DNA of 64,000 nt from Fictibacillus phosphorivorans (lineage in GTDB: Bacteria; Bacillota; Bacilli; Bacillales; Fictibacillaceae). The notes under the pieces are model-generated. The model made no database searches, had not been told where the DNA came from, and saw only the letters and a program-made list of their open reading frames with translations. How positions within the stretch are numbered: the first letter of the stretch is position 1; every line of letters starts with the position of its first letter. The stretch spans positions 2,790,001-2,854,000 of the forward strand of contig NZ_CP015378.1 in assembly GCF_001629705.1 (NCBI RefSeq), in the 5' to 3' direction. Shown piece by piece: positions 7,771 to 53,030 of the stretch. The translations under genes were made by a program, and so were the position numbers.

Positions 7771-7803
7771 AAAAGAAAGCCGGGATCTAAATCCCGGCTT
7801 TCT
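7771..7803. terminator. Bidirectional terminator between comER and nrdB
   Basis: A 12-bp perfect stem (7775-7786 with 7791-7802) built around AAGCCGGGAT has A and T runs on its sides. It overlaps the nrdB stop. Confidence 0.85.
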
Positions 7804-8854
7804 ATAGTTCATCGAACCCGTTTTCATCCGAAACTTTCGTGTATTGTCTCGATTTCTGCTCAAAAAAGTCACTTTTTCCGGAATTCACATCAGAATATGC
7901 TTTTATCCAGGGAAGTGGATTCTTATTGTATTCTGGGTATAGTTTGTTAAAACCTAACTCGTTCAACCGTTTATTCGCCATAAATTTAATATATGCTTCA
8001 AGATCGGCTTCACGAATGCCCTCAAATGAATTTCCTATAATATATTTACTCCACTTGATCTCAAGCTGAGCGGCCCTGTCAAACGTGTCCCTCGCAAAAT
8101 TCTCCAGCTCTGCATCTCTTAATTGCGGATCTTCTTCTAATATTCCCTTGAAAATTTGAGTAAATAGATAAACATGCAGCTGCTCATCTCTATTAATATA
8201 GTTGATCATCGTTGAAGTCGAAACCATCTTTTGATTCCTGGCTAAATTATAAAAAAAGCTGAATCCGGAATAAAAATTCAATCCTTCAAGAATCACGTCG
8301 TAAATAATAGATTTCAAAAAGGTACGAGGCGTAGGGGTTTGAAGAAATTCCTCATACCCTTCAACAATGAAATCATTCCTCTCTCTTAGCACCTCATCTG
8401 TTTTCCAGTATTCAAATATTTCATCCTGCTTGCTCTTCGGTACCAAAGAGGACAACACATACGAATAGGACTGATTATGAACGACTTCTTGAAACGATAG
8501 AGTCGCCATGAGCGCAGCAAGACTGGAATCTGTTAAATATGCTGCCACTTTACTCGAATAATCTGTTTGAACACTATCTAAGAACGCCAATAAACCAATA
8601 ATTTTATTAAAAGTATCTTGCTCTTTTTCACTCAAATTAACATATTGCTTACTATCACTAGACATATTGATCTCGAACGGCGTCCAAAAATTAGCCAACA
8701 TGTTTTTGTATAGGGGATAAGCCCACTTATATCTCACATCGTCCCAGTTTAAAATATTTGAACTCTTACCGTTGATAATTCCTGTAGATCGATTAGGAGC
8801 TTCCACATCATAGATTCTTCTCTCTTTAAGGTGTTCAACCTCTTTAACTTTCAC
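7802..8854 (-). CDS. nrdB: Class I ribonucleotide reductase, beta (radical) subunit
   Basis: The beta subunit holds the diiron/tyrosyl radical cofactor that starts ribonucleotide reduction. From the GTG at 8854 the protein is 350 aa. All metal ligands can be placed: Asp93, Glu123, His126, Glu190, Glu224 and His227. The radical Tyr130 sits in the EVVHNQSYSY motif, so this is a normal tyrosyl-radical enzyme. A GTG at 8863 is also in frame, but the AAGGA site abuts it and suits 8854 better. The start lies inside the end of nrdA, so the two are translationally coupled. Class Ia or Ib cannot be separated with certainty; no nrdI or nrdH is seen next to it. Confidence 0.93.
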   Translation of the reverse strand: MKVKEVEHLKERRIYDVEAPNRSTGIINGKSSNILNWDDVRYKWAYPLYKNMLANFWTPFEINMSSDSKQYVNLSEKEQDTFNKIIGLLAFLDSVQTDYSSKVAAYLTDSSLAALMATLSFQEVVHNQSYSYVLSSLVPKSKQDEIFEYWKTDEVLRERNDFIVEGYEEFLQTPTPRTFLKSIIYDVILEGLNFYSGFSFFYNLARNQKMVSTSTMINYINRDEQLHVYLFTQIFKGILEEDPQLRDAELENFARDTFDRAAQLEIKWSKYIIGNSFEGIREADLEAYIKFMANKRLNELGFNKLYPEYNKNPLPWIKAYSDVNSGKSDFFEQKSRQYTKVSDENGFDEL

Positions 8855-11069
8855 AGCTTTCACATCCTTCTAACTCAATCGAAGTAGACCTAGTATAATA
8901 AGTAGTCTTTAACCCTTTTTTAAAGCTTAACAGATGAAGGTGTAACAGATCTTTTGCCTTGATGTTGTGATTAACATAAAGATTAAACGAAATGGACTGA
9001 TCGACGTGTCTTTGTCTAGCAGCATTCTGTTCGATACTCCAAGTTTGATCGATCAAGAACGCGGATTTATAGTACCATGTTGTTTCTGCATTCAAATCGG
9101 GTGCTGTTACAGGGATCTTGTAATTCTTTTTTTCTTCGGAATAGAATTTTTTAAATATCGGATCCACACTCGGTGTTGAATTTGCGATGATCGAAGTCGA
9201 TGAATTCGGTGCCACTGCAATGAGGTATCCATTCCTTAGACCATGTATGTTAACTCTTTCTTTTAAACTCTCCCACTCTTTAGAGGAATAGTTCCGTTTT
9301 GAAAAATAGTTTCCGGTTTCCCAATCCGAACCCAAAAACGCTTGATATCTTCCCTTTTCTTTCGCAAGCTCACAACTAGCATTGATCACATAATAATTGA
9401 TGGTCTCATAGAGATGATCAGCATACGTAACCGCTTCTTCACTTTCCCACTTGATTCCCTCTTTTGCTAAGAGATGGTGCCATCCAAACGTACCTACACC
9501 GATCGCACGATATTTCTTATTTGTTAGCTCCGCTTGAGGTACATCTATACGATTAAGATCAATAACGTTATCGAGCATTCGGATCTGGATATCGATAACT
9601 CTTTTGAGTACGTTAGCGCCGATGACTTTAGCAAGCGAAAGAGAAGATAGATTACAAACAACAAAATCTCCTGGCGTTTTTCTGATGACGATTTCTCCGT
9701 TCTCTGCTTTCTCTGACGTGACCACTGTTGCAGACATGTTTTGCATAATTTCTGTACATAGGTTAGAAGCATAGACCATCCCTTTATGTGCATTGGGATT
9801 TAACCGGTTGACAGTATCTCGATAAAACATGAAAGGTGTTCCGGTTTCAAGTTGCGACTTCATGATCCGTTTCATAATTTCAATAGCAGGAATACACTTT
9901 TTTGAAAGTCTCTCATCGTTGACACAATCTTTATATCTTTCACTAAAGTTACCTGAACCAATTCTTTCATCGTAGAAATCTTCTAAGGAATACCCTTTGA
10001 TCTTTCTTACCTCATGAGGATCGAACAGATACCAATCCTCGCGTTTTTCCACGCATTCCATGAAAAGGTCCGGCAGACAGACACCTGTAAATAGGTCATG
10101 CGTTCTCATTCGTTCATCACCATTATTTAATTTTGCATCTAAAAACTCTAGGATGTCTTTATGCCAAATGTCTAAGTAAACAGCAATCGCTCCTTGCCTC
10201 TGGCCAAGCTGATCGACAGATACCGCTGTGTTGTTCAACTGTTTCATCCAAGGTATTACACCCGATGAATTTCCTTTGAATCCTTTAATATCCGAACCTC
10301 TAGCCCTAATTTTCCCGAGATAGATCCCGAGTCCACCTCCACCTTTTGAAACAGTTGCAGCATCTGTATTAGAATCAAATATCCCTCTTAAGCTATCGTC
10401 GATCGTATCAATAAAACATGAGCTAAGCTGGCCATAACTCTTACCTGCATTCGCTAATGTCGGGGTAGCAACCGTCATATATAGATTGGAGAGAGCCCAG
10501 TATGCTTCTTCGACTAATTGAAGCCTATTCATTTTGTTCTCGTCTCTCATTAAAAACAACGCGATCAACATCCAGCGTTCTTGTGGCAATTCATAGATTT
10601 CATGATTGAATCCTTTTGCCAAGTACCGATCCGCTAGCGTTTTTAGTCCAATGTATGTAAAAAGCTTATCTCTAGATGGATCGATCATATTTTCTGCTTT
10701 CTCCAAGTCTTCCTTTGAGTATGATGAGAGAATGGTATCATCATAGATATCCATCCCTACTAACTTTGTGATCAACCCATAGAGGTTCGTATATGGCTTA
10801 TTTCTTGTCTCCACACGATTCTTCATTACTTCTTCATACAACTGCCTTAAATAGATCTGTGATGCCACAAACGTCCACTCTGGGTTCTCTGCATCCAATC
10901 CATTTAATGCTTCCATGATTAACTGTCTATAAAGTGAGCTTGATTCCTGTGTATGATTTTCTAATTTCTCCGCATGTTTTAGAAAGTTGTCCGCTTGTAT
11001 GTTCGGATAATTTTTGACACAACTCCTTAACCACTCCCCGAGCAAAGAGTTTTCAGTTGTCATTTTCAT
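8844..11069 (-). CDS. nrdA: Class I ribonucleotide reductase, alpha (catalytic) subunit
   Basis: The large subunit reduces ribonucleoside diphosphates to deoxy forms. The protein is 741 aa from the ATG at 11069, with AAGGAG upstream; the open frame extends further only into the terminator of the leader. Active-site motifs are present: a first redox Cys in SSCFIDTID, the NLCTEIM motif with catalytic Cys and Glu, a second redox Cys in VVCNLSS, the Tyr-Tyr radical relay in TTYYTRS, and a C-terminal CESC pair that passes electrons from thioredoxin or glutaredoxin. Expression is predicted to fall when cobalamin is abundant, because a B12 riboswitch and terminator lie upstream. Neither nrd gene belongs to the usual B. 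subtilis order at this place. Confidence 0.95.
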   Translation of the reverse strand: MKMTTENSLLGEWLRSCVKNYPNIQADNFLKHAEKLENHTQESSSLYRQLIMEALNGLDAENPEWTFVASQIYLRQLYEEVMKNRVETRNKPYTNLYGLITKLVGMDIYDDTILSSYSKEDLEKAENMIDPSRDKLFTYIGLKTLADRYLAKGFNHEIYELPQERWMLIALFLMRDENKMNRLQLVEEAYWALSNLYMTVATPTLANAGKSYGQLSSCFIDTIDDSLRGIFDSNTDAATVSKGGGGLGIYLGKIRARGSDIKGFKGNSSGVIPWMKQLNNTAVSVDQLGQRQGAIAVYLDIWHKDILEFLDAKLNNGDERMRTHDLFTGVCLPDLFMECVEKREDWYLFDPHEVRKIKGYSLEDFYDERIGSGNFSERYKDCVNDERLSKKCIPAIEIMKRIMKSQLETGTPFMFYRDTVNRLNPNAHKGMVYASNLCTEIMQNMSATVVTSEKAENGEIVIRKTPGDFVVCNLSSLSLAKVIGANVLKRVIDIQIRMLDNVIDLNRIDVPQAELTNKKYRAIGVGTFGWHHLLAKEGIKWESEEAVTYADHLYETINYYVINASCELAKEKGRYQAFLGSDWETGNYFSKRNYSSKEWESLKERVNIHGLRNGYLIAVAPNSSTSIIANSTPSVDPIFKKFYSEEKKNYKIPVTAPDLNAETTWYYKSAFLIDQTWSIEQNAARQRHVDQSISFNLYVNHNIKAKDLLHLHLLSFKKGLKTTYYTRSTSIELEGCESCES

Positions 11070-11092
11070 AGTTAAAACACTCCTTAGGTCAT

Positions 11093-11126
11093 AATAAAAA
11101 CCCTCTTCCATCAGGAAGAGGGTTTC
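11093..11126 (-). terminator. Terminator stem of the nrdA cobalamin riboswitch
   Basis: On the minus strand a 12-bp perfect stem (11114-11125 with 11098-11109), AAACCCTCTTCC type, is followed by a run of T directly before the nrdA ribosome binding site. This is the expression platform: B12 binding should favour termination. Confidence 0.88.
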
Positions 11127-11204
11127 AAGAATCACATGTATTTTGCTAGATGATAGTTAGCATAAAACAGCGGCAGTTCTTTCTCCCAATCCCCGAGGAA
11201 AAGA

Positions 11205-11390
11205 AAATAGGAGTCTTCAGGCAGGTCTACTGGCTTTTGCTTCTTCCTACTTTGGGCCTTCCCATACAGCAGTCATTTTATTAACTGATCTGTACAGTGG
11301 CTATTCCATTTCGTCCACAATTACAGTTGCGGGGACAGCTTCGGCATTGAACCGAATTCCCTTTTAAGCCGGATGTTCCGGCACCTGAAT
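11205..11390 (-). promoter_or_regulatory. Cobalamin (B12) riboswitch controlling nrdAB
   Basis: Reading the minus strand from about 11388, the conserved blocks of the cobalamin aptamer appear in order: AGGTGCC (11380-11386), AAAAGGGAA, a TCGG/CCGA stem, AGCTGTCCCCGCAACTGTAA near 11320-11340, the B12-box part GCCACTG (11295-11301), GGGAAGGCCC, and AGCCAGTAGACCTGCCT (11219-11235). A factor-independent terminator follows and then nrdA. The full set and order leave little doubt about the class. In actinomycetes similar switches shut off class I reductase when B12 permits class II NrdJ to work. Confidence 0.95.
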
Positions 11391-11460
11391 TCTCCATATA
11401 TAGTTTTGTATTATCTACTTTGACACTAAATATAGTGAATGTCAATAACTTCTCTATTCT

Positions 11461-12246
11461 TTATTGCGAAACATAGCCGCCGTCGATCACAATCGCTTGC
11501 CCTGTAACACCCTTCGCATTCTCACTAGAAAGAAAGAGTGTGTAATCTGCTATTTCTTGAACATCTAACAATCTTTTTTGAGGAACAAGTGGATAGATCA
11601 CTTCTTCCAGAACTTTCTCTAACTCAACGTTTCTTGTTTTCGCCAGATCTTCTAATTGTCCTCTTACAAGTGGTGTATCAACATAACCAGGGCAAACCGC
11701 ATTTACCGTTATTCCATGTGGCGCACCTTCTAAAGCGGCCACTTTCGTTAGTCCGATAACGCCATGCTTTGCACTATTGTATGCGGATTTTCCGGCAAAA
11801 CCTACAAGTCCATTGATTGAGGCCATATTTATGATACGTCCGAACCCTTGTTTTTTCATGATTGGAAAGACATGTTTTGTCGCTATGAATGGAGCTGTCA
11901 GCATAACATTGATCAACTGTTGAAACTTCTCTGTTGGAAACTCTTCGAGTGGCGACACGAACTGCAATCCTGCATTGTTGATCAGCACATCGATACGACC
12001 ATAGTGCTTCAATGTTTCATCCAATGCTTCTGTTAACTCATTTTCTTGTGTCACATTACAGCCGATTCCAATCGCATCTAGATCAGCTTGCACGAGCGAT
12101 TGTGCAGAATCCTTGGCACGCTCAGGATCTAGATCACTGATTGCTACTTTAGCTCCTTGTTCTGCGAATGCTTTTGCTAACTGTAAGCCGATCCCACTTG
12201 CTGCTCCTGTAATAAAAACCACTTTTCCCTCAACGAACGCTCTCAT
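11461..12246 (-). CDS. bdhA: 3-hydroxybutyrate dehydrogenase
   Basis: A 261-aa short-chain dehydrogenase that should oxidise D-3-hydroxybutyrate to acetoacetate with NAD. The nucleotide site TGAASGIG is at residues 14-21, the NNAG motif near 90, and the catalytic Ser, Tyr and Lys in MASINGL and YNSAKHG. Features typical of this enzyme rather than other SDRs are GLQFVSP after NNA and PGYVDTPLVRGQ near residue 187. It follows the GntP-type permease by 29 bases and is probably in its operon. The gene has AAAGGAG ten bases before the ATG. It lies upstream of the nrdA riboswitch promoter but has no clear terminator of its own. Confidence 0.92.
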   Translation of the reverse strand: MRAFVEGKVVFITGAASGIGLQLAKAFAEQGAKVAISDLDPERAKDSAQSLVQADLDAIGIGCNVTQENELTEALDETLKHYGRIDVLINNAGLQFVSPLEEFPTEKFQQLINVMLTAPFIATKHVFPIMKKQGFGRIINMASINGLVGFAGKSAYNSAKHGVIGLTKVAALEGAPHGITVNAVCPGYVDTPLVRGQLEDLAKTRNVELEKVLEEVIYPLVPQKRLLDVQEIADYTLFLSSENAKGVTGQAIVIDGGYVSQ

Positions 12247-52748: not shown

Positions 52749-52793
52749 AAAAAACTCCCATCCCTATAAAAAATACAGGGACGAGAGTTTGAA
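52749..52793 (-). terminator. T-box regulated terminator of alaS
   Basis: On the minus strand an AAACTCTCGTCCCT...AGGGATGGGAGTTT stem is followed by a T-run. It directly follows the T-box sequence that would form the competing antiterminator. Confidence 0.88.
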
Positions 52794-53030
52794 TTCACGC
52801 GGTACCACCCTGGTTATACGCTTTAAAACAAGCATATCACCTTGATTAAGCCTTAACGCGGCATAACGGCAGATTTTCCTTCTGCACTCCAGAGTAGCGT
52901 TCTGCTTCGCTTCTTCCTAAAACATCTTTCAGCCGATGGATGTTTCTCTCTTTTGGAAGGACTGAAACGTACTTTTCTCTTTCAGCGATTTTTGATCTTC
53001 TAGCGTTAGTATACGTTTATTCATTCTTAC
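52749..53030 (-). promoter_or_regulatory. T-box leader of alaS
   Basis: The conserved T-box AGGGTGGTACCGCG lies at 52798-52811 on the minus strand, upstream of the terminator. Further upstream are a stem I region with AGTACG and GAAAGATG elements, and an AACGCTACT segment whose GCT (52896-52898) is a candidate alanine specifier codon. Uncharged tRNA-Ala should stabilise the antiterminator and switch on alaS. Confidence 0.93.

Follow-up and report, generated by a model that had tools for sequence, protein, structure and literature searches.

A cobalamin riboswitch, probably acting by transcription attenuation, precedes the class I ribonucleotide reductase genes nrdAB of Fictibacillus phosphorivorans

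In Fictibacillus phosphorivorans, the class I ribonucleotide reductase genes nrdAB are preceded by a cobalamin riboswitch aptamer and an intrinsic terminator, and the B12-dependent reductase NrdJ is encoded elsewhere in the genome. The element probably constitutes a transcription-attenuating riboswitch that would turn nrdAB off when adenosylcobalamin is plentiful; we assign this reading a probability of about 0.88. The analysis was based on a window of 64,000 nucleotides (contig NZ_CP015378.1, positions 2,790,001 to 2,854,000), to which all coordinates refer unless noted otherwise, on the complete genome (a single contig of 4.23 Mb, 100% complete) and on related genomes.

The aptamer and the nrdAB genes

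The leader and the two genes comprise the following elements, in the order of transcription:

11203..11403, minus strand: cobalamin riboswitch aptamer RF00174 (covariance model, 122.4 bits)
11091..11126, minus strand: intrinsic terminator, made up of a hairpin (11126-11097) and a U-tract to 11091 (-21.1 kcal/mol)
11080..11085, minus strand: ribosome-binding site AAGGAG, 3′ of the terminator (sequence)
8844..11069, minus strand: nrdA, large subunit of class I ribonucleotide reductase, 741 aa, ATG at 11069 (NF006665, 1294.6 bits, cut-off 1057)
7802..8863, minus strand: nrdB, class I small subunit, 353 aa, with an overlap at the 3′ end of nrdA (NF007184, 428.7 bits, cut-off 310)

The match to RF00174 (Cobalamin; cmscan of the whole window, 11403-11203, E 3.1e-30) spanned positions 1-189 of the 189-position model and was not truncated. 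Its score lies far above the gathering score of 31.5 bits, which rules out a spurious aptamer. The preliminary description of this DNA had named an aptamer, a terminator and class I nrdAB in this order; all three were recovered, and the poor covariance score that it had named as a refuting result was not seen. Its boundary at 11390 leaves out 13 nt at the 5′ end of the aptamer. NCBIfam and Pfam typed nrdA and nrdB as class I R1 and R2, and the closest solved chain to NrdB was 2rcc_A. A longer GTG frame from 11135 was considered as the start of nrdA and rejected because it would run through the terminator; the ATG at 11069, which has its own ribosome-binding site, was preferred. The nearest named relatives belong to Fictibacillus, and the NrdA of F. 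nanhaiensis DSM 23009 was 96% identical (among the best 80 of 531 relatives). Elsewhere in the window, a T-box leader (105 bits) was observed at 52774-52994 on the minus strand.

The terminator and the predicted antiterminator

A generic terminator scan of the window, whose sole match lay on the plus strand, did not return the hairpin of the nrdA leader, probably because the stem extends into the T-run and leaves too few T behind it. The hairpin was shown by a dedicated scan and by folds. When the leader was folded without the 3′ arm of the terminator, 11195-11177 paired with 11131-11112; once the 3′ arm was present, the terminator won. The strands of the predicted antiterminator and the loop bases proposed to control it are as follows:

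11177..11195, minus strand: predicted 5′ strand of the antiterminator, comprising L13 and the 3′ side of P13 (folds)
11112..11131, minus strand: predicted 3′ strand of the antiterminator, shared in part with the terminator's 5′ arm (folds)
11346..11350, minus strand: L5 bases UCAAU, proposed partner of L13 (complementarity read by eye)
11186..11190, minus strand: L13 bases AUUGG, proposed partner of L5, within the antiterminator strand (by eye and folds)

The antiterminator and terminator strands are predicted to be mutually exclusive. A kissing loop between L5 and L13 is described as a known trait of the cobalamin riboswitch class in passages of PMC9600662. Because the L13 bases sit within the antiterminator strand, such a contact would explain how the bound aptamer removes the antiterminator.

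The same leader region was compared in 71 leaders, namely that of the window and those of 70 aptamer-bearing loci from relatives. A terminator was present in 58 of them by a strict scan and in 61 by a relaxed scan. A first test of antiterminator pairing, which used narrower segments, gave the weaker result: 40 of the 61 leaders with a terminator were matched by at most 5% of shuffles, and the window reached -11.0 kcal/mol. The segments were widened and the leaders de-duplicated after this test, which resulted in a sample of 37 of the 61. For 33 of these representative leaders, at most 5% of mononucleotide shuffles paired as well (L018, L026, L034 and L046 missed this mark), and in 35 of the 37 the pairing with the leader's own terminator was better than the mean pairing with the terminators of other leaders, the exceptions being L026 and L034. 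On average, own pairs reached -28.0 kcal/mol versus -20.2 kcal/mol for swapped pairs. For the window's own leader, 2.5% of the shuffles and 6% of the swaps were as good. As judged from the predicted structures and the swap control, the leader fits an expression platform with an alternative terminator and antiterminator.

The regulatory mechanism is not uniform across the relatives. Ten of the 71 leaders lacked a recognizable terminator (L028, L037, L039, L051, L056, L058, L059, L064, L065 and L082); seven of these are named Metabacillus and three Bacillus sp., and two other Metabacillus leaders (L048 and L061) contained a terminator. The ten seem to carry a different expression platform behind the same aptamer, which lends some weight to the notion that the aptamer works mainly by blocking translation or by altering mRNA stability rather than by termination. 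We consider this quite unlikely for the window, whose stable terminator with its U-tract precedes the ribosome-binding site. The presence of a terminator in most leaders and the preference of 35 out of 37 for their own terminator argue against it as well, and sequestration of the ribosome-binding site was not significant in the ten terminator-less leaders (9.5% to 75% of shuffles did equally well). Attenuation of transcription remains the preferred reading.

Reductases, NrdR and the distribution of the switch among relatives

The genome encodes exactly two R1 proteins of the PF02867 type, NrdA and an 853-aa NrdJ (NF005991, 1661.6 bits, cut-off 854; TIGR02504 NrdJ_Z, 595.8 bits), and only one R2. 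From this count it follows that nrdEF is absent and that the cell has NrdAB and NrdJ to choose from, plus possibly a class III NrdD. An nrdJ gene elsewhere had been postulated from the window, and the genome-wide search bore this out, with no further PF02867-type R1 or R2; absence of nrdJ was thereby ruled out. The gene is uninterrupted and located about 113 kb from nrdAB (start to start), and none of the three cobalamin riboswitches of the genome lies near it. A cobalamin adenosyltransferase is encoded in the genome. CbiC, a corrin-ring synthesis protein whose gene was the single synthesis gene searched for, was not found, which makes imported cobamides the probable source of cobalamin. With only two PF02867-type reductases and no CbiC, the supply of DNA precursors may respond directly to environmental cobalamin; if true, this would make F. 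phosphorivorans a clean test organism.

The two further cobalamin riboswitches precede other genes. One (116.6 bits; L002 1501-2319, C1:325498-326316 of the genome) is located in front of a hotdog acyl-CoA thioesterase, which is YciA-like and below the cut-off of the model, and a DUF454 gene. One riboswitch was picked in each of 17 further genomes of the genus, and in 15 of them the thioesterase again followed it; in the two exceptions the wrong riboswitch may have been picked. Two methylmalonyl-CoA-mutase-type proteins are encoded in the genome, so that, speculatively, stalled acyl-CoA might have an outlet that does not need B12. The other (L003 1501-1684, C1:2575160-2575343) precedes a small lipoprotein and a protein resembling the S component of an ECF transporter (weak matches only), which possibly serves cobalamin uptake. 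Two divergent cobalamin riboswitches, arranged back to back, were observed in Halalkalibacterium ligniniphilum (L063, 2150-2350 and 2570-2753).

A second layer of control is suggested by sites around the start of the aptamer, which were scored against a 16-letter consensus that we take to be that of NrdR:

11423..11438, minus strand: NrdR-box-like site 1, TCACTATATTTAGTGT (14/16 to the assumed consensus)
11410..11415, minus strand: -10-like GATAAT between the two NrdR-like boxes, with a weak -35 TTCACT at a spacer of 18 (consensus match only)
11391..11406, minus strand: NrdR-box-like site 2, AAACTATATATGGAGA (12/16), extending into the start of the aptamer match

Promoter-like matches near the aptamer were about as frequent as expected by chance (3 versus 2.9). 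The two boxes, which flank GATAAT, are offset by 32 bp with a spacer of 16 bp and form the best pair of the region, equaled by none of 200 shuffles; a spacer of 15-16 bp is given as preferred by NrdR in passages of PMC12051234. A spaced pair within the range from 120 bases before to 30 bases after the aptamer start was found in 68 of the 71 leaders at a level that no more than 1% of shuffles attained, and L022 (1.5%), L033 and L066 failed this mark. Upstream of nrdJ, the best pair in F. phosphorivorans was weak: it matched at 22/32 positions with a 17-bp spacer and was equaled by 1.5% of shuffles. Of the 40 relatives that encode NrdJ, 25 were listed with a single uninterrupted match, and 20 of these were examined together with the F. 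phosphorivorans gene; a pair passed the 1% mark in 18 of the 21 and the 5% mark in 20. The best spaced pairs at nine Exiguobacterium loci reached only 20 to 23/32, as raw scores that carry no shuffle baseline. Single boxes were at chance genome-wide (61 versus 69 in a reversed control), and only spaced pairs stood out. The genome contains an nrdR gene (227.6 bits). These patterns suggest that NrdR probably tunes both reductases while B12 would choose between them.

The conservation of the arrangement was assessed at 80 NrdA loci, which are the best 80 of 531 confirmed NrdA relatives from named genomes. RF00174 was found upstream on the same strand at 70 of them (16/16, 14/16, 15/16, 14/16 and 11/16 by batch), in many genera and with scores of 91 to 128 bits, and its distance to the start of the NrdA match was 125-480 nt at all of them but L076 (1424 nt). 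The preliminary description took B12 control of class I genes to be uncommon in bacilli, a view that is not supported by this count or by the case already in print for Bacillus methanolicus (PMC4342826): a B12 switch in front of nrdAB is common around this NrdA type in bacilli. The ten loci that lacked the aptamer comprised the nine from Exiguobacterium and L032, whose contig starts about 320 bp before its nrdA. A search of the whole genome of one of these Exiguobacterium (L036, a metagenome assembly) revealed no cobalamin riboswitch at all.

Within the organism's own family, an NrdA-type R1 was present in 33 of 34 genomes, and all 33, own genome included, carried the aptamer at a distance of 763-1059 bases upstream of the PF02867 match. 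In these genomes, the PF02867 score was the sole means of distinguishing NrdA from NrdJ types (above 500 bits for NrdA type), and the single R1 of the 34th genome was NrdJ-like by this score. The NrdJ-like gene appeared interrupted in 19 of the 34 genomes, as judged from the pattern of PF02867 matches (for example L135 2029-2347 and L136 636-1022), and group I introns were found in two of the four interrupted genes that were scanned.

The occurrence of NrdJ was determined in 50 genomes drawn from the 80 loci, chosen to include all ten aptamer-less loci and spread over genera. NrdJ exceeded the cut-off in 40 of them; the ten others were the nine Exiguobacterium and Sutcliffiella deserti. With L032 set aside, its contig starting near the gene, 39 genomes had both NrdJ and the aptamer, none had NrdJ only, one had the aptamer only and nine had neither (Fisher p 4.9e-9, a value that takes no account of kinship, one genus supplying nine of the ten genomes without NrdJ). 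Counting L032 as a miss gives 39/40. Aptamer and NrdJ are missing together in one genus.

The genome with the aptamer only was that of S. deserti (L076), in which nrdA is preceded by an aptamer scoring 115.9 bits and by a terminator, and in whose assembly NrdJ was not found. This state could reflect a recent loss of nrdJ or an assembly gap. About 1.3 kb of largely direct repeats (L076 1577-3003) lie between the riboswitch terminator and nrdA, with copies of 183-227 and 72-127 nt and no reading frames of at least 80 aa. Tentatively, and with more doubt than confidence, one may picture the pairing of aptamer and nrdAB in Bacillaceae as an old fixture whose output was rebuilt. Most of the lineages seen here would terminate transcription, the terminator-less Metabacillus-type group would retain the B12 logic and act on nrdAB by other means, perhaps at translation, and S. 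deserti, after an apparent loss of nrdJ, would be left with a B12 off-switch on the only R1 found and the repeats in front of nrdA.

Since S. deserti retains the aptamer and no NrdJ was detected there, presence of the aptamer alone does not prove its use, and it could be an inherited relic, with nrdAB effectively constitutive or controlled by NrdR alone. We regard this as very unlikely, because the high aptamer scores at 70 loci, and the fit that the terminators have kept to their own antiterminators despite divergence, point to selection, and because the nine Exiguobacterium loci, in genomes without NrdJ, lack the aptamer. That the riboswitch serves a different transcription unit is hardly credible: the upstream gene, encoding 3-hydroxybutyrate dehydrogenase, shares its strand but ends at 11461, before the aptamer, while nrdA is the next gene downstream, 134 nt past it, and the aptamer lies near nrdA in all 33 family genomes with an NrdA-type protein.

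Proposed mode of control and comparison with known systems

For the favored reading, a transcription-attenuating switch on nrdAB, we infer the following course of events. Upon cobalamin binding, L5 would kiss L13; this contact would hold 11195-11177 in hairpin P13 and keep the terminator's 5′ half available, and transcription would therefore stop before nrdA. Without cobalamin, 11195-11177 would pair with 11131-11112, the terminator would be blocked and nrdAB would be made. At low cobalamin, the cell would rely on the oxygen-dependent NrdAB, and in the presence of cobalamin on NrdJ, whose gene is free of a riboswitch. Upstream of that choice, NrdR probably represses both operons at high dATP.

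A search of the literature collection used here found no paper on Fictibacillus with ribonucleotide reductase. The B12-directed choice of reductase is best known from Streptomyces, and the distribution described above indicates that it is more widespread in bacilli near this NrdA type than had been held. The analogy with Streptomyces drawn in the preliminary description proved apt. Streptomyces coelicolor nrdABS also combines a B12 aptamer in front of class I nrdAB with NrdJ in the genome and NrdR as a second regulator. It belongs to another phylum, and its B12 response was reportedly measured by Borovok et al. in 2006, whereas that of F. phosphorivorans is predicted from the sequence.

Isozymes of B12-dependent enzymes are named as one of four target classes of cobalamin riboswitches in passages of PMC3766115, and the same logic is stated for nrdDG and NrdJ in delta-proteobacteria in part of PMC545781. 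A close parallel among bacilli is Bacillus methanolicus MGA3, where an AdoCbl riboswitch in the nrdAB leader was found by RNA-seq and Rfam and likened to S. coelicolor nrdABS; a B12 test, NrdR boxes and an antiterminator are absent from the part of that account describing it (PMC4342826). For Priestia megaterium, a review passage likewise places a cobalamin riboswitch before B12-independent reductase genes in an organism with NrdJ (PMC8390425). The genes are called nrdEF there, whereas in our record (L072) the riboswitch is followed by a relative of NrdA with 67% identity. In Propionibacterium acnes, passages of PMC3848588 describe riboswitches on nrdAB and nrdDG, NrdJ, and NrdR boxes at both nrdAB and nrdRJ, the latter carrying no riboswitch, and termination before nrdAB was inferred from RNA-seq. 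This resembles the present case, but nrdAB has one NrdR box there versus a spaced pair here, and nrdDG is also under riboswitch control. The arrangement is thus already in print for Streptomyces, Propionibacterium and B. methanolicus, and that of F. phosphorivorans appears ordinary in kind and, at the level of sequence, well supported.
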